From positions 1 to 59,984 of the forward strand of contig JAOAFT010000014.1 of the NCBI GenBank assembly GCA_026416125.1: a stretch of DNA of 59,984 nucleotides, written 5' to 3'. The DNA is from Bacteroidota bacterium. GTDB lineage: Bacteria > Bacteroidota > Ignavibacteria > UBA10030. Positions 32,304-43,527 of the stretch are shown here, one piece after another. The notes beneath the pieces were generated by a model. It saw only the letters and a list, made by a program, of their open reading frames with translations, was not told where the DNA came from and did no database searches. Positions within the stretch are counted from its first letter, which is position 1. Each line of letters starts with the position of its first letter. The position numbers and the translations under genes are program-made.

Positions 32304-33314
32304 ATGGAAAACATTGTTTTAAAACCATCAGAACATCGTGTAACACCTATTGATGAAAAGAAAAAAGCAGTCAGCGAAATTCTTAAACGTGTCGATCAAC
32401 TCATAAAGAAAAATGATCTAGACCGTGCATTAATCGAACTCGCTCATGCAAAAGAGTACGACCCACGAAACGTTTATGCACTCGCTCTCGAAGAGCGTAT
32501 TGCTTTGCTTAAAGAAGAACAAAAACAGTATCACAATTCTGTAGAAAAACATGATCTACTACAAACACAAGTTCGAGAATCAAATGAATCTTCCATAATT
32601 AATAATGAAAATGATCATTGTAACAAAACTTCTTTAGGGGGACAAGAAGCGCATCCAACACAACAAGAACTTCAAAAGTACTTTGGATTTTTAATCGAAT
32701 CTCTCCGACAAGGACACGAGAATCCAGAACTTGAACGGCACCTGAGTGAGATGAGAAAGCAATACAAAATTTCCGATAACTTACACCAAACTGTACGACA
32801 AGAAGCACTGAAGTATATGGTAGAACACCATCCGAAAAATACCAATCTGTCTACAAGTCAACCAAACAGCAAAGTTCAGAAGCAACGTGATAAAATTCTT
32901 ATAATCGATGACGATCCGAAACTCCTCGAGCTCTTAACACAATCTCTTATGGACCATGGATATGAAGTAATAGCCCTTGCTACCTCTGACGAAGCATACG
33001 CACTTCTCCGGAAATTCACCCCAGATCTAATCCTCTGTGACATAAACTTAGAAACATCAACAATGGGTGGATTTACGTTCTACGAAAAGATTCAGGAGTT
33101 TCATCATCTCCACCATGTACCATTTATTTTCCTCACCGGATTAACTGATGCAGCTATCGTTCGGACGGGAAAAGAAATCGGTGTAGATGATTATCTCACA
33201 AAGCCAATCACTGAAGATGCGCTCCTCGCTACTATCCGTGGAAAACTCAAGCGCTTCAAACAATTACGTACATTCTTTTCACAGAAACCTGCTGTCTCTA
33301 TGGCAACTCCCTAA
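32304..33314 (+). CDS. Response regulator with TPR-like N-terminus and C-terminal receiver domain
   Basis: The 336-residue protein reverses the usual order. Residues 1-75 form a TPR-like helical segment (LDRALIELAHAKEYDPRNVYALALEER), a variable polar linker follows, and the receiver domain lies at about 193-320. It has the acidic pair DDD, the phosphoacceptor Asp in LILCDINL, a conserved Thr in FLTG and Lys in LTKP. There is no DNA-binding output domain, so it probably signals by protein contact. GGAG lies eight bases before the ATG. It converges with the split helicase. Confidence 0.8.
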   Translation: MENIVLKPSEHRVTPIDEKKKAVSEILKRVDQLIKKNDLDRALIELAHAKEYDPRNVYALALEERIALLKEEQKQYHNSVEKHDLLQTQVRESNESSIINNENDHCNKTSLGGQEAHPTQQELQKYFGFLIESLRQGHENPELERHLSEMRKQYKISDNLHQTVRQEALKYMVEHHPKNTNLSTSQPNSKVQKQRDKILIIDDDPKLLELLTQSLMDHGYEVIALATSDEAYALLRKFTPDLILCDINLETSTMGGFTFYEKIQEFHHLHHVPFIFLTGLTDAAIVRTGKEIGVDDYLTKPITEDALLATIRGKLKRFKQLRTFFSQKPAVSMATP

Positions 33315-33346: not shown

Positions 33347-34378
33347 CTATGTAACAACCCATGGTTCAAGGAGTGAACTATCAATTCCTTCGAGGAATCG
33401 TGAAGGTTTGGTAAGTATAACACCTGTATCTCGATCGTAGACATTCATTGGATACGTAATGATAAGGTGTTCTTTCGCACGCGTACATGCAACATACATT
33501 AATCGACGTTCCTCTTCCATCTCCTCCTCACGTATTGCAGCACGGAGCGCAGGGAAACGTCCATCGAGCGCATAGATAATAAACACAACTCGCCATTCTA
33601 ATCCTTTTGCGCTGTGCACAGTCGAAAGTGTGAGGAACTCCCGTTCGTGGCCAGGTGATTCAATATCAACAATACTATTCGTTGGTGGCTCAAGAGTAAT
33701 GTCTGTAAGGAGTTCACCAATCGTTTCGTACCGTTCAGCAATGTTTTGGAATATTTCAAGGTCTTTTCGCCTCTTCATAAAGTCATCGTACTTATCTTTC
33801 AATAGCGGTTCATAGTACTGGATAATGTTGAACACTTTTTCGGCTGGTGTACGAAATTGTACCATCGTCGTACAAAGCATTTCAAACAATTGACGAATTG
33901 TCGAAGGATATTTGTTGTAGCCCATCCAGAACTTTGTTGTTGTTGTAATTGGTTCTTGAAATTCTTTCGATAAACTAACACGATTCTCAAGAATATCATT
34001 CACAACTTTCTCGGCTGTACGAGGGCCAACACCATCGAGAAGTAAAAGAATTCGATTCCACGAAACCACATCACGAGAATTTTCAAGTACCCGTAAGTAT
34101 GCCACAACATCTTTAACATGAGCTGTCTCAATGAATTTAAAACCGCCATACTTTCGAAAAGGAATATTAGCTTTTGCTAATTCAAGCTCTAAATCAAATG
34201 AATGGAACGATGAACGAAATAGTACCGCAATCTCCTCTAGCGGAATTCCCATTTCACGAAATTCAAGGATCTTTTGTACAACGTACCTCGATTGCATATT
34301 CTCAGTTTCTGCTGCAACAAGTTGGGGGAGGGCCCCACCCTCTTTTTTTGTAAAGAGTACTTTTGTATACATCCGCAT
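33347..34378 (-). CDS. UvrD/PcrA-family helicase, C-terminal half (domain 2)
   Basis: This frame carries the second half of an SF1A helicase: the motif IV-V region (IAVLFRSSFHS, GFKFIETAHVKDVVAYLRVL), motif V TVHSAKGLEWRVVFI and motif VI RRLMYVACTRAKEHL. It lacks an ATP-binding Walker A motif, which lies in the neighbouring frame upstream. I place the start at the ATG at 34378, seven bases after the TAG of the N-terminal half and preceded by GGAGTAGGA. The frame is open back to an ATG at 34414. Together the halves make a protein of about normal UvrD length. Confidence 0.8.
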   Translation of the reverse strand: MRMYTKVLFTKKEGGALPQLVAAETENMQSRYVVQKILEFREMGIPLEEIAVLFRSSFHSFDLELELAKANIPFRKYGGFKFIETAHVKDVVAYLRVLENSRDVVSWNRILLLLDGVGPRTAEKVVNDILENRVSLSKEFQEPITTTTKFWMGYNKYPSTIRQLFEMLCTTMVQFRTPAEKVFNIIQYYEPLLKDKYDDFMKRRKDLEIFQNIAERYETIGELLTDITLEPPTNSIVDIESPGHEREFLTLSTVHSAKGLEWRVVFIIYALDGRFPALRAAIREEEMEEERRLMYVACTRAKEHLIITYPMNVYDRDTGVILTKPSRFLEGIDSSLLEPWVVT

Positions 34379-34385
34379 TCTTGTC

Positions 34386-35390
34386 CTACTCCGAACTGTG
34401 CTTGAGAATATCATTTCGATTTAAAATAGCATTTGCTAAGTTCAATATAGGTTGTGTACTCCGAAAGTTCTCTTCAAGTTTAATTATTTTACAGTCTGGA
34501 TATTCGTTTGGAAATGTGAGGATGTTATGAATAGTAGAACCACGAAATGAGTAAATACATTGCGCATCGTCACCAACAACCATAATGTTCCGGTGAGCCT
34601 GCGATAAAAGCTTAATAATTTCTGCTTGAATACGATTCGTATCCTGATACTCATCAACCATAACATAGCGGAATCGTTCTTCAAGTACACGGCGCACATC
34701 GTCGTGTTCACGAAGTAATGTTGCACAATTGAAGAGGAGATCGTCGTAATCCATCAAATTGTGCTGTCGTTTGTAGTGGACATATACTTGGTAAAGCTTC
34801 TGAATGTCCTCTTCGAGTTCGAGAAATTGTGGATACTCGTTGAGTAAAAGTTGAGGGAGTGGTACAAGGGTATTCACTGAGCGACTGTAGAGATCATAGA
34901 GTGTCTCCTTTCGTGGAAAGCGTTTTTCCTTTGCATCATATTTCAATTTTGTTCGGAGAAGATTCACAACATCCTCTGCATCTGTTTGATCTAAAATTGT
35001 ATAGTTTGTTTCGTACCCAACGAGCTTTGCATAGCGACGGAGTATCGAATTTGCAAACGAATGGAACGTACCTCCGGAAACGTGTTCACACCGCCTATCG
35101 AGGAGCAACGAGGCTTTACGGAGCATTTCTTGTGCTGCTTTTCGTGTAAAGGTAAGCAAGAGGATTGTGTCCGGCTTCACTCCACATTCAACAAGGTACG
35201 CTACGCGGTATACAATTGTTCGGGTTTTTCCTGTACCAGCACCTGCGATAATAAGATGAGGCCCTTCGGTAGAGGTGACTGCTTCATACTGTGCTTCATT
35301 AAGTTCACGTCGATAGTCAATTCGAAAATGTTCAGGTTTTACTAATCGGAGTGGTGTGGTTTTCTGTGATTGCAACACATACTTCTTCAT
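34386..35390 (-). CDS. UvrD/PcrA-family helicase, N-terminal half (domain 1)
   Basis: This frame holds the first half of the helicase: the Q-motif LNEAQYEAV, Walker A GAGTGKTRT, motif Ia LTFTRKAAQEM, motif II VMVDEYQDTN, motif III VVGDDAQCIYSFRG and motif IV LEENFRSTQ. It stops at a TAG (34388-34386) shortly after ANAILNRN, just where UvrD proteins continue into domain 2. An upstream TTG reading to 35441 exists, but the ATG at 35390 is more likely. It may be one gene broken by a frameshift or a genuine two-polypeptide helicase. Confidence 0.8.
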   Translation of the reverse strand: MKKYVLQSQKTTPLRLVKPEHFRIDYRRELNEAQYEAVTSTEGPHLIIAGAGTGKTRTIVYRVAYLVECGVKPDTILLLTFTRKAAQEMLRKASLLLDRRCEHVSGGTFHSFANSILRRYAKLVGYETNYTILDQTDAEDVVNLLRTKLKYDAKEKRFPRKETLYDLYSRSVNTLVPLPQLLLNEYPQFLELEEDIQKLYQVYVHYKRQHNLMDYDDLLFNCATLLREHDDVRRVLEERFRYVMVDEYQDTNRIQAEIIKLLSQAHRNIMVVGDDAQCIYSFRGSTIHNILTFPNEYPDCKIIKLEENFRSTQPILNLANAILNRNDILKHSSE

Positions 35391-35548: not shown

Positions 35549-36796
35549 ATGAATATACTCGTTTTAAATTGTGGAAGCTCCTCACTCAAGTTTCAAATCA
35601 TCGAAACAGATCTCAAGAAAATAGAAAAGAACGAAGATAAACAACTAGCAAAAGGACTCATTGAACGTATCGGGAGCCAAGCTCTTGTTACCCTCCAGGC
35701 AGATGGTGCACCACCAGTGAAGCATGCTGCACCTCTTCGTGATCATCGATCAGCACTCGATCACATTATTAAATGGATTATTTCCGATGATTCAAAGATT
35801 CCCAATATCCAATCGCTTGCTGATATTCATGCAATTGGCCATAGAGTTGTCCATGGTGCAGAACGATTCACTAATTCTACTATCATCACCGATGCTGTTA
35901 TTCGCGGAATTGAGGATTGCATTGACCTTGCTCCACTCCACAATCCAGCAAATTTGAAAGGTATCTTAGCTGCACGGGAGGTTTTTGGACCTGGTGTACC
36001 ACAAGTAGCTGTCTTCGATACATCGTTCCATGCAACAATGCCAGAGACATCTTTCCTCTATGCAATTCCATACCAACTCTACCGTCGTCACAAAATTCGC
36101 CGGTACGGGTTTCACGGTACTTCCCATCGCTACGTCGCTTTTCGTTACCGTCAACTAACAGGAAAATCACGAGAGGAAACAAACATCATCACACTCCACC
36201 TCGGTAATGGATGTTCTGCGTGTGCAATCAAGCATGGTTCTTCATTTGACACATCGATGGGGTTATCACCACTCGAAGGTCTTGTTATGGGTACACGTGG
36301 TGGAGATCTCGATCCTGCAGTTATCGAGTTTCTCGTGCACAAAGAAGGAATGTCGATGGTTGAAATTGACAATCTCCTTAACAAACAATCTGGTCTTCTC
36401 GGAATCTCTGGTTTGACAAACGACATGAGAGATCTCCTAGCAGAAGCCCATGAACATCAAGATCGTCGTGCAATGCTTGCTATTAACATTTTTGTGCAAC
36501 GCGCAAAGAAGTACATTGGCGCTTACTTAGCTGAAATGAATGGTGCTGATGGTCTTGTGTTCACAGGAGGTATTGGTGAGAATGCCGCACCTATTCGTCA
36601 ACTCATTTGTGACAATATGCAGTGGTTAGGTATTGAAATCGACGAAAAAGTAAACGCCGAAATGGTCGGTGGAAAAGAAGGTGATATTAGTACTAAGAAG
36701 AGTCGAGTAAAAGTTTTCGTTATCCCAACAAACGAAGAACTTCTTATCGCGCGCGATACTGCACGGTGTGTTCTTAGTACACCAGAGACAAAGTAA
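35549..36796 (+). CDS. ackA: Acetate kinase
   Basis: The 415-residue protein begins with the ASKHA signature ILVLNCGSSSLKF and contains HRVVHGAE, FDTSFHATMP, RRYGFHGTSH and FTGGIGENA, all characteristic of acetate kinase. It interconverts acetate plus ATP and acetyl phosphate, in central carbon metabolism. No phosphate acetyltransferase gene is nearby. No convincing ribosome-binding site lies before the ATG; a TAATAT box lies 12 bases upstream but no good -35 box was found. It stands alone on the plus strand. Confidence 0.96.
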   Translation: MNILVLNCGSSSLKFQIIETDLKKIEKNEDKQLAKGLIERIGSQALVTLQADGAPPVKHAAPLRDHRSALDHIIKWIISDDSKIPNIQSLADIHAIGHRVVHGAERFTNSTIITDAVIRGIEDCIDLAPLHNPANLKGILAAREVFGPGVPQVAVFDTSFHATMPETSFLYAIPYQLYRRHKIRRYGFHGTSHRYVAFRYRQLTGKSREETNIITLHLGNGCSACAIKHGSSFDTSMGLSPLEGLVMGTRGGDLDPAVIEFLVHKEGMSMVEIDNLLNKQSGLLGISGLTNDMRDLLAEAHEHQDRRAMLAINIFVQRAKKYIGAYLAEMNGADGLVFTGGIGENAAPIRQLICDNMQWLGIEIDEKVNAEMVGGKEGDISTKKSRVKVFVIPTNEELLIARDTARCVLSTPETK

Positions 36797-36865
36797 TTGC
36801 CTCCTCAAATCTAAGCAGCAAAGCATGCACCCAGTTTCAACTTGAGGTTTGAAGGTGGAGAGCAC

Positions 36866-38347
36866 CTACCAATGAATCCGAAAAATATAAATCGTTTGAT
36901 TTTTATTGAATCGAGGATTGAGTTGGTAGAAAACATTGTCAAGGAAACTTGGCTGGATAGTTGCTTCATACAACAAGTCCCGACCGAGGGATCGCTCAAA
37001 CTTTTCTTTCCTTTCAATGGCTTTCGGACCAAAACATATCACGTAGTTAGGGCACTTTCCTGCAGTAAGAATTTTTGCAACCACACTATCAATATGAGCA
37101 TCGCTATGAATTTCAAAGATGCATTTCGTGTATTGTCCAGTATAAAATTGTGGCATTTGTGTTATTCCTACATCACCTGCCACTAATACGAAACCAGTGA
37201 GGTGCTTACCATATAAGTAATACATTGTTTCAACTCGTGCACGTTTTGAGTAGTACGTACTAAAAACCACCAACAGCACAATGTTTATTACCCAAAACCA
37301 ACCCCACAAACCTTTCACCAACCATTTGTTTCGTTCCCAAAATCGGGACAGTTTCACTAAATCCACCCATCCCATTACCGAAAGCATGAGTATTTGAGGT
37401 ACCACCGAAAAAACAAACCGTTCCTGCTTATTAGGAAATAAAGAGAGAAACAGGAAAAATGCCAGTGTAGAAAAAAAGATGAGTGACGATCGTTTCCATT
37501 CACGAACGTAACCATAGAGAAGGAAAAAGCTCATCGGTGGTATGAATGCACCAATGAGAAGCAACAAATAGTTGTACCAATTTCCCGTTGTGTACTCTGT
37601 GCTGTGTGTAAGATTGTAGCGGGTGTATTCGAGTACAGCTGCAAATGGATATCCCCACGCAAACGTATCGGCACTTCCTTGAATGAGAAGTGCTGCTGTA
37701 ATCCCCCCGAGCGCTAAGTACGATGTTTCTCTCCATCTTTTTTGGAAGAGCCAGAAAATTCCAATGGTCATCGGCATCAATATGGTTTGGTAGCGAAAAA
37801 CAAAACCTAGTCCAAAAAGAATACCAGACCACCATGCATATTTTTTCCCTTCATTCGCTCTCAGTGCATAGTACATCCCAGCCATTATGGGAGGGATACA
37901 CACAACCTCAATGAGATTACGAACACTAATGAACGGGAAAGGCCAAAAGAGAGCGAGGACTACTCCCGTGTACCAAGCTGTGTGTGCTGATGAGAGATGT
38001 CGAACAATACGGTATCCAAAATACACGATCAACAAAGAGTAAAGAGCATGGAGTAGTCGAACAAGAAGCATTACTTTTTTAGGATCTACAATACCAACTC
38101 CTTTGAGGATGTAAAACAAACCATAGTGTAATGCTGGATAAACAATACTGTGGCCATGGACCCCTCCACGATTTTCCCAATATGAACTATCATGCATGAT
38201 GATAAATGGTTGTTCGATTGGCCCAAAGTGATCATCATGCATACCATACCCTTGGGATGCAAACACAGCAATAAGTCGAGGTACTAGTGCTATAAGAAGG
38301 AGTGACCGAAGAGGATGTAATTGCAAGTGTGAAAGAAGTACCTTCAT
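36866..38347 (-). CDS. GT-C glycosyltransferase, GT22 (Alg9/PIG-B)-like
   Basis: The 493-residue membrane protein has about ten transmembrane segments and an acidic pair near the N-terminus in GYGMHDDHF, the DxD-type site of GT-C enzymes. PNKQERFVF near residue 300 resembles the HKExRF motif of GT22 mannosyltransferases. Such enzymes transfer sugars from polyprenyl-phosphate donors to glycolipids or glycans. It is the last gene of the porX-tsaE-tsaB-accD-panC run, ten bases after the nucleotidyltransferase gene. The exact acceptor is unknown. Confidence 0.78.
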   Translation of the reverse strand: MKVLLSHLQLHPLRSLLLIALVPRLIAVFASQGYGMHDDHFGPIEQPFIIMHDSSYWENRGGVHGHSIVYPALHYGLFYILKGVGIVDPKKVMLLVRLLHALYSLLIVYFGYRIVRHLSSAHTAWYTGVVLALFWPFPFISVRNLIEVVCIPPIMAGMYYALRANEGKKYAWWSGILFGLGFVFRYQTILMPMTIGIFWLFQKRWRETSYLALGGITAALLIQGSADTFAWGYPFAAVLEYTRYNLTHSTEYTTGNWYNYLLLLIGAFIPPMSFFLLYGYVREWKRSSLIFFSTLAFFLFLSLFPNKQERFVFSVVPQILMLSVMGWVDLVKLSRFWERNKWLVKGLWGWFWVINIVLLVVFSTYYSKRARVETMYYLYGKHLTGFVLVAGDVGITQMPQFYTGQYTKCIFEIHSDAHIDSVVAKILTAGKCPNYVICFGPKAIERKEKFERSLGRDLLYEATIQPSFLDNVFYQLNPRFNKNQTIYIFRIHW

Positions 38348-41518: not shown

Positions 41519-41968
41519 TTACCTCTCCTGCAACTGCTCAATACGGATTATTCTCTCACTTTCATTCTTACCAAATAAAAAGTGAACTTCATACCGATAC
41601 AATGGCAACACATCGTTACACCGCTCTGCCCATTCGATACAACTTATACCATCGCTGTAAAGAATTTCTTCGTATCCAAGTTCATATAATTCGAGAGCCG
41701 ATTGAAACCGATACAAATCTAGGTGATTAATCCATAGAGGTTTTCCACTACGATCTTTTCCTTCGTACCGCGTATAGACAACGAATGTCGGGCTTATGAC
41801 AACACTTGTTGCTCCAAATGCTTCACAAATACCTTTCACAAACTGTGTCTTTCCCGTACCTAAATCCCCATAGAGTGCTACAATATCACCGCGTTTCAAC
41901 TGACTGGCAAATGTATTTGCCACTGCTCGGGTTTCCTCAGGTGTTACTGTATAAAATTCTTTTTTCAT
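41519..41968 (-). CDS. tsaE: tRNA threonylcarbamoyladenosine biosynthesis ATPase TsaE
   Basis: The 149-residue protein has Walker A GDLGTGKTQFVKG near residues 35-47, SPTFV(V), and the characteristic INHLDLYR motif. TsaE is the ATPase that drives the TsaB-TsaD complex in t6A synthesis. Its start overlaps the stop of porX by four bases, an adjacency I recall from other Bacteroidota. Confidence 0.94.
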   Translation of the reverse strand: MKKEFYTVTPEETRAVANTFASQLKRGDIVALYGDLGTGKTQFVKGICEAFGATSVVISPTFVVYTRYEGKDRSGKPLWINHLDLYRFQSALELYELGYEEILYSDGISCIEWAERCNDVLPLYRYEVHFLFGKNESERIIRIEQLQER

Positions 41969-43527
41969 CGAGAACGCAAACGAACAAGTGGCAAAATCAT
42001 CTCTTCAAGTGAAATCCCCCCATGTTGAAACGAGTCACGGTATTGCTGAAGGTACTTGTGGTAATCAGTAGGATAAACAAAGTAGTAATCTTCCTTTGCA
42101 AAGATATAGTTTGTTGTGCTGCTTACCGATGGAAGTCTATAGTCCTGTGGATGCTTGACGATGAATGCGTGTTTTGACTCGACTTTCAGGTTTCTCCCTA
42201 ATTTGAATCGTAAGTTTGTTGAGGTTTCACGATCAGCTACAACCTTCGTGCCCCGCAAACAACGAATGCTTCCATGGTCTGTTGTGAGAATAATAGATAC
42301 ATTTTTCTGAGTACTAAGGGTTTTTAGCATTCCCAGAAGTGAGGAATACTGAAACCACGTAGAAGTGAGAGAACGGTATGCTGCCTCATCGGGAATAATT
42401 TCTCTAAGTAATTGGGAATCTGAGCGTCCATGCGCGAGCATGTCAACAAAATTTACTACAATAGCAATAACTTGTGAAGATAAGTACGAAAGGATATTAC
42501 TTTCAATTGTTTTCCCAAATTCCGGATCCAAAATCTTTATGTACTTGGGTTCACTTTTCAATTGTAAACGCTTACGTTCAAAAAGGCTTGTAAGTAACTC
42601 GTGTTCATATCGATTGCAACTATTCTCATCACTATCGATGTTACTCCACAGATCAGAGAAATACTTTGCTAAATCCGCTGGGAACAACCCACTAAAAATT
42701 GCGTTCCTCGCATACGGTGTTGCTGTTGGTAGAATGCTCAGGTAAAACTCTTTATCAATAGCGAAGTACTCCCGGAGAATTTCTTCCATCATTAACCACT
42801 GGTCATATCGTAAACAATCGACAACGATGAATACGACAGTTTTCCCACTTTTTACTTCTGGGAAAATGTATCGCGGCACAATATCAGGGGAAAGTGCAAT
42901 CTCTCTATTTTCTGTCTCAAGAAATGACCGGTACGTCCGTTCAATGTACTTTCCAAAAGCTGCATTACATTCACGTTTTTGATCAAATAGACTTTGTTGT
43001 AACCCGACATCAGGATGACGATCAAGTTCCAAGTCCCATTCAACGAGCCTTTTATAAAGGTCAATCCATTCAGAAAGGGACAATTCACTTTGAAGTGCAT
43101 TGCTGATATGCTGAAACTCTTCAATGTAACTCCGCGAGACGTGTTCGGAGGCAATTTTTTTTGCCTCGAATACCCGCTTGCATGCAAGAATGAGTTGACT
43201 TGGATTTACTGGCTTGATAAGGTAGTCTGTAATTTTACTCCCAAGCGCTTCTTCCATCAATGATTCTGTTTCATTCTTCGTAACCATAATTACTGGGATA
43301 GAGGGTGAACATTCTTTAATTGCTGTAAGCGTTTCAAGGCCCCCGATACCAGGCATCATTTCATCTAAAAACACAAGATCGAAGTGTTTAGACTTTACAA
43401 GTTCTATACCATCTTCACCATTTGTGGCAGTTTCGACAATGTACCCCCGCTGTTCTAAAAGTTGAATATGAGATCGAAGAAGGTTGATTTCGTCGTCTAT
43501 CCAAAGTATTGTTTTTTGTTTTATCAT
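41965..43527 (-). CDS. porX: PorX-type response regulator with PglZ domain
   Basis: The 520-residue protein has an N-terminal receiver domain (acidic pair at residues 11-12, phosphoacceptor Asp in LVFLDEMMPG, Thr in VTKN, Lys in LIKPVN) and a C-terminal PglZ/alkaline-phosphatase-like domain (VVDCLRYDQW, NFVDMLAHGRSD, TTDHGSIR). This combination defines PorX, the regulator of T9SS in Porphyromonas and relatives. The ATG has no ribosome-binding site and a promoter ends eight bases upstream, so the mRNA may be leaderless. It heads a run through tsaE, tsaB, accD and panC. Confidence 0.9.
   Translation of the reverse strand: MIKQKTILWIDDEINLLRSHIQLLEQRGYIVETATNGEDGIELVKSKHFDLVFLDEMMPGIGGLETLTAIKECSPSIPVIMVTKNETESLMEEALGSKITDYLIKPVNPSQLILACKRVFEAKKIASEHVSRSYIEEFQHISNALQSELSLSEWIDLYKRLVEWDLELDRHPDVGLQQSLFDQKRECNAAFGKYIERTYRSFLETENREIALSPDIVPRYIFPEVKSGKTVVFIVVDCLRYDQWLMMEEILREYFAIDKEFYLSILPTATPYARNAIFSGLFPADLAKYFSDLWSNIDSDENSCNRYEHELLTSLFERKRLQLKSEPKYIKILDPEFGKTIESNILSYLSSQVIAIVVNFVDMLAHGRSDSQLLREIIPDEAAYRSLTSTWFQYSSLLGMLKTLSTQKNVSIILTTDHGSIRCLRGTKVVADRETSTNLRFKLGRNLKVESKHAFIVKHPQDYRLPSVSSTTNYIFAKEDYYFVYPTDYHKYLQQYRDSFQHGGISLEEMILPLVRLRSR

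Follow-up and report, generated by a model that had tools for sequence, protein, structure and literature searches.

The window, i.e. the whole stretch of 59,984 nucleotides that was analysed, encodes on its minus strand a UvrD-family helicase that, according to the reading of its open reading frames (ORFs), is divided over two ORFs in different frames. The upstream gene (34386..35390, ATG at 35390 and TAG at 34388-34386) encodes 334 amino acids which comprise domains 1A and 1B with motifs I, Ia, II and III as well as the strand-helix of motif IV, and it covers the whole UvrD-helicase profile of Pfam (PF00580, E 3.8e-78). Its last approximately 34 residues (34389..34490, minus strand) are predicted to form a strand (residues 301-305) and a helix (residues 313-332) and contain motif IV with Arg310, the counterpart of PcrA Arg287. 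The downstream gene (33347..34378, minus strand) starts with the ATG at 34378 and encodes 343 amino acids with the remaining part of domain 2A, domain 2B and motifs V and VI; it is assigned to UvrD_C (E 9e-48). The two products are referred to as N-half and C-half. An earlier note on this DNA had described a UvrD helicase split into two intact halves in different frames, which is confirmed by the ORFs and the Pfam assignments.

The TAG of the N-half gene and the ATG of the C-half gene are separated by seven bases (34379..34385, minus strand), a gap whose length, frame and sequence are not conserved in the relatives. The ATG is preceded by GGAGTAGGA (34384..34392, minus strand), which by its sequence is Shine-Dalgarno-like and overlaps the stop codon. 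A restart of translation at this position, as proposed in the earlier note, may therefore be possible. Similar motifs precede the C-half in a minority of the relatives (11 of 64 junctions). The longest ORF in the C-half frame opens further upstream at ATG 34414 inside the N-half gene, and the overlap of up to 29 bases that had been noted before is thereby reproduced. In homologs of the C-half the first residue corresponds to position 34378 or 34372, which is 7 or 13 bases past the stop. The start MRMYTK from the window corresponds to MRTYTK in a close relative (L006) and to M(R)xYxKxL in the homologs. Judged from these homologs, ATG 34378 appears to be the better start of the C-half than ATG 34414.

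The C-half gene is convergent with a plus-strand gene (32304-33314) encoding a 336-aa protein with an apparent TPR-like region and a receiver domain; the two stop codons are 32 bases apart. The window also encodes a 520-aa response regulator (41965-43527, minus strand) in which a receiver domain is combined with a PglZ-like part at the C-terminus and which by eye resembles PorX of the type IX secretion system of Bacteroidota.

Within the relatives of the window pair, motifs I, III and IV are present in all 40 N-halves, and the same is true for motif II if DEFQD is allowed. Searched as strict strings, motif V was found in 56 and motif VI in 54 of 57 C-halves, and the exceptions that were inspected (L013 and L022) are single small changes. 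Residues N308, R310 and S311 of the N-half are invariant in 35 rows of split and fused proteins. In PcrA numbering the N-half aligns with residues 11-303 and the C-half with roughly 304-650; as R310 does with PcrA R287, the motif VI arginine of the C-half aligns with PcrA R610. The AlphaFold model of the N-half (pLDDT 87) has its best PDB match in 3pjr (Z 33.8). Its 1A/1B core exceeds a pLDDT of 90, the values for residues 301-334 go down to 50-76, and in several rows the structural matches of low rmsd end at residue 311-312. The model of the C-half (pLDDT 80) matches residues 290-646 of UvrD with Z 23.9, and against PcrA/UvrD it gives Z 24.2 and 23.9. The four-domain fold of 1A, 1B, 2A and 2B is thus predicted half by half, each half having been modelled as a single chain.

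With the NCBIfam profile of PcrA the halves score 284 and 178 bits, where the curated cut-off is 911, and the scores remain far below the equivalog cut-offs for PcrA, UvrD and Rep (TIGR01073, TIGR01075 and TIGR01074). The split helicase is a third UvrD-type protein beside the canonical single-chain copy of 749 aa in the same cell. Throughout the split clade its domains are distributed over two genes. Homology and fold fit, and what is absent is the usual but non-catalytic single chain. Therefore we regard the pair as a variant of the UvrD/Rep family of SF1A helicases.

The C-half was searched for in 99 relatives, then in 294 genomes of the class and then in 98 genomes of the same order, all of the compared genomes being draft MAGs. 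At E<=1e-90 it was found in 63 of the 98 genomes of the order, and in none of them in a fused form. In each intact ortholog of the order the C-half stands in a frame of its own, about 330-450 aa long, and never in a fused one; the only frame of 690 aa (G020) has a TGA just ahead of the ATG and is thus broken as well. The same break is seen in six genomes from a second order (family f9). Outside the split clade a single frame of 657-758 aa is found in 98 listed genomes of the class, and orthologs from Desulfobacterota, Myxococcota, Acidobacteriota and others are fused as well. The public records carrying the split pair (loci L081-L091) are MAGs of uncultured Ignavibacteria/Bacteroidota. One contig (C31 of G009) contains the helicase pair twice, at 35573-37758 (plus strand) and 87569-89754 (minus strand), with identical scores and in inverted orientation, which is either a real inverted repeat or an assembly artefact.

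These data bear on the explanation favoured in the earlier note, namely that a small insertion had broken the frame, and more generally on a recent frameshift or indel in one gene of this genome, which would make it a pseudogene or an error of assembly. The window pair looks as a fresh indel would look, with two halves 7 bases apart in different frames. However, the comparison with close relatives revealed no single frame, and every ortholog from the order, like six genomes from another one, shows the same break. Moreover, some relatives carry whole genes between the halves. For both halves dN/dS is 0.01-0.08 among congeners with unsaturated dS; both are under strong purifying selection. We consider a recent indel, a pseudogene or an assembly error to be ruled out by the conserved break and the low dN/dS, with virtually no probability left for them.

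The region between the halves is highly variable. At 59 junctions the spacer from stop to start ranges from -4 to 7231 nt and occupies all three frames (22, 19 and 18 cases). The N-half is terminated by an in-frame stop at all 59 of them, and the C-half starts with ATG in 52, GTG in six and TTG in one case (ATG or GTG at 58 of 59). The linker lengths given in the earlier note (43 bases against about 15 in PcrA/Rep) hold, and the about 28 extra bases deduced from them are correct for the window genome but, given the range of the spacers, not in general. Even within one genus (g8) spacers of 0, 1, 1, 51 and 106 nt occur. The spacers of family f1 are largely noncoding. The spacer of L025 (G021) holds an ORF assigned to 23S_rRNA_IVP (PF05635), which is not located within any rRNA gene. 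Most genomes of f6 carry a homocysteine S-methyltransferase gene between the halves, and f3 and part of f2 a gene for a lipoprotein of about 265 aa (L084, 2219-3013; L090, 2186-2989), for which no Pfam match was found. In L090 this gene overlaps the N-half and the C-half by 4 nt each, as in a tight operon. No conserved element was seen in the spacers, and their contents are unrelated between relatives. The spacer of L027 contains tandem copies of approximately 130 nt, and short CTGACTC-like repeats are present in those of L017, L018 and L025, which suggests that the spacer freely tolerates insertions.

In some genomes the halves are far apart. In G077 (f6) they are separated by 7.2 kb with two ORFs on the opposite strand that resemble real genes. 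In f9 each of the six genomes encodes the two halves on separate contigs; this means that they are unlinked only where enough contig flanks each half, i.e. in G100, G119 and G145, while the halves of G128 could be close. If the N-half is located upstream of the C-half, as it is in the other families, the contig extents give minimum separations of about 23 kb, 13 kb and 7 kb for G100, G119 and G145, respectively.

A full-length protein could still be made by recoding, i.e. by a programmed frameshift, by ribosome bypass or by an intron-like element, and a test for +1 frameshifting had been proposed in the earlier note. In several genomes the halves nearly touch or overlap (-4 to +5 nt), which makes frameshifting or reinitiation conceivable. 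A programmed frameshift or bypass is characterized by a conserved recoding site and a short fixed junction, whereas here length, frame and sequence of the spacer vary even inside genera, and the C-half has a proper start codon nearly everywhere. The +1 frameshifting is contradicted by halves that are parted by opposite-strand genes (L161) or reside on different contigs (f9). Because of these contigs, and of the 7.2 kb with opposite-strand ORFs in G077, no single mRNA or recoding event can join halves that are placed like these. Frameshift or bypass is therefore ruled out by the variable spacers and the unlinked halves, and we regard recoding in general as highly improbable. That we deal with two separate conserved genes is near certain.

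The split has a single origin. In a tree of 88 concatenated proteins, which was obtained by a quick search and has some long branches elsewhere, the split proteins of f1, f2, f3, f5, f6 and f9 group together on one side of one branch with an SH-aLRT support of 100. The fused proteins of family f20 are the sister of this split clade, so that the change from fused to split is one event on the tree. Across the cut site the fused f20 proteins read ..NEIIDRAREKYTKVLYT.., i.e. RAREKYTK without a linker. The N-halves of f6, f9, f3 and f2 terminate in R(A/G)R(E/D) or ALD followed by the stop, and most of the matching C-halves open with MxRHK(Y/F)xKxL. The comparison of the fused RAREKYTK with the split RARE-stop and MxRHK indicates that the cut was placed between E and K and that no residue was lost. 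The short new start M-x-R-H is common even to the unlinked genes of f9. In f1 the tails of the N-halves have drifted and the start of the C-half has shifted to MYYKEL.

Both halves are retained or lost together. Orthologs counted by hand for the order (98 genomes) gave 65 genomes with both halves, 28 with neither and five with one only (Fisher p 7e-19, shared ancestry being ignored). Three of the latter (G075, G096 and G051) are truncated at the end of a contig, and in G078 the upstream sequence is shorter than the spacer of its genus; four of the five are thus explicable by contig ends. In the fifth (G084), a MAG that is 61% complete, the N-half is present and the C-half was not found. The evolutionary rates of N-half and C-half are similar.

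The co-retention is of importance for the question whether the two polypeptides form one motor or whether each half has taken over a new independent role. The ability of the halves to drift apart in the genome would fit independent roles. On the other hand, each half holds a part of the ATP site only, yet the motifs of both are conserved, and the joint retention and loss as well as the similar rates also speak against separate functions. Hence we rate independent roles as unlikely, and one assembled two-chain motor as the likely product of the two genes.

Taken together, the data point very probably to an ancient and fixed gene fission which gave rise to a two-subunit SF1A helicase with its ATP site between the chains. 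One gene for a UvrD/Rep-like helicase would have been converted into genes for two separately translated subunits, A (334 aa) with 1A, 1B and the strand-helix of motif IV, and B (343 aa) with the rest of 2A and 2B. The SF1A chain has a single crossing between domains 1 and 2, which is where the cut is placed, and for this reason a single cut can yield two continuous polypeptides. In Rep, domain 2A begins close to the motif IV arginine at residue 277, and the N-half would thus carry the first helix of 2A. Subunit A might bind to B in such a way that its C-terminal strand-helix fills in the missing part of domain 2A in B and keeps the two chains together. The ATP site would be formed in trans: A would supply Walker A/B, motif III and the arginine of motif IV, and B would supply motif V and the arginine of motif VI. 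PcrA R287 and R610 both contact the gamma-phosphate of ATP, and with these arginines divided between the halves each half alone should be inactive. That the nucleotide sits between 1A and 2A is established for the SF1A family (PMC3797037; PMC13238157). The heterodimer would act as one UvrD monomer and serve DNA maintenance as a 3'-5' ssDNA translocase/helicase, alongside the ordinary single-chain PcrA of the cell.

UvrD-type helicases are textbook single-chain motors, and it has long been debated whether their working form is a monomer or a dimer. A monomer that was cut between its motor lobes and has long been kept so offers a separable natural motor with which the purpose of the covalent link can be probed. 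We hold it as probable that this is a natural two-chain SF1 motor whose ATP site lies between subunits from separate genes and which has persisted while at least two bacterial orders diversified, its genes being unlinked in one of them. Assembly could then be a control point and subunit dosage a new regulatory variable. Annotation pipelines may label such pairs as frameshifted pseudogenes or as two 'partial' helicases.

In the open-access literature, to which the search extended, no published case of a natural two-chain UvrD or of a split SF1 helicase core was found. One paper considered as a precedent for a 'split helicase' (PMC4824171) was rejected, since by title and abstract it deals with neurotoxin gene clusters. 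In comparison to PcrA, UvrD and Rep, the set of domains and motifs and their order are unchanged in the pair, with an identity to PcrA of 37% for the N-half and 31% for the C-half over the aligned structure. It differs in being encoded by two genes as two chains and in lacking the C-terminal extension after motif VI. The fused orthologs from other orders of the class (for example L168-L170, family f20) have 57-64% identity per half; in contrast to the split pair these are single frames of 657-758 aa, in which the motif IV helix leads straight into the next segment. The PcrA entries 1qhh and 2pjr also hold several separate chains per PDB entry, so the PcrA fold has been seen with a broken chain. 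These cuts, which we take to arise from proteolysis, are located at other places, and PcrA is encoded by one gene. A helicase-containing DNA enzyme that is naturally made of two chains is reverse gyrase, which is split in two polypeptides in Nanoarchaeum equitans and Methanopyrus kandleri, in the former at the boundary between helicase and topoisomerase and in the latter off the domain borders (PMC8185306). Unlike reverse gyrase, the UvrD-type pair is cut within the motor core, between one RecA-like lobe and the other.
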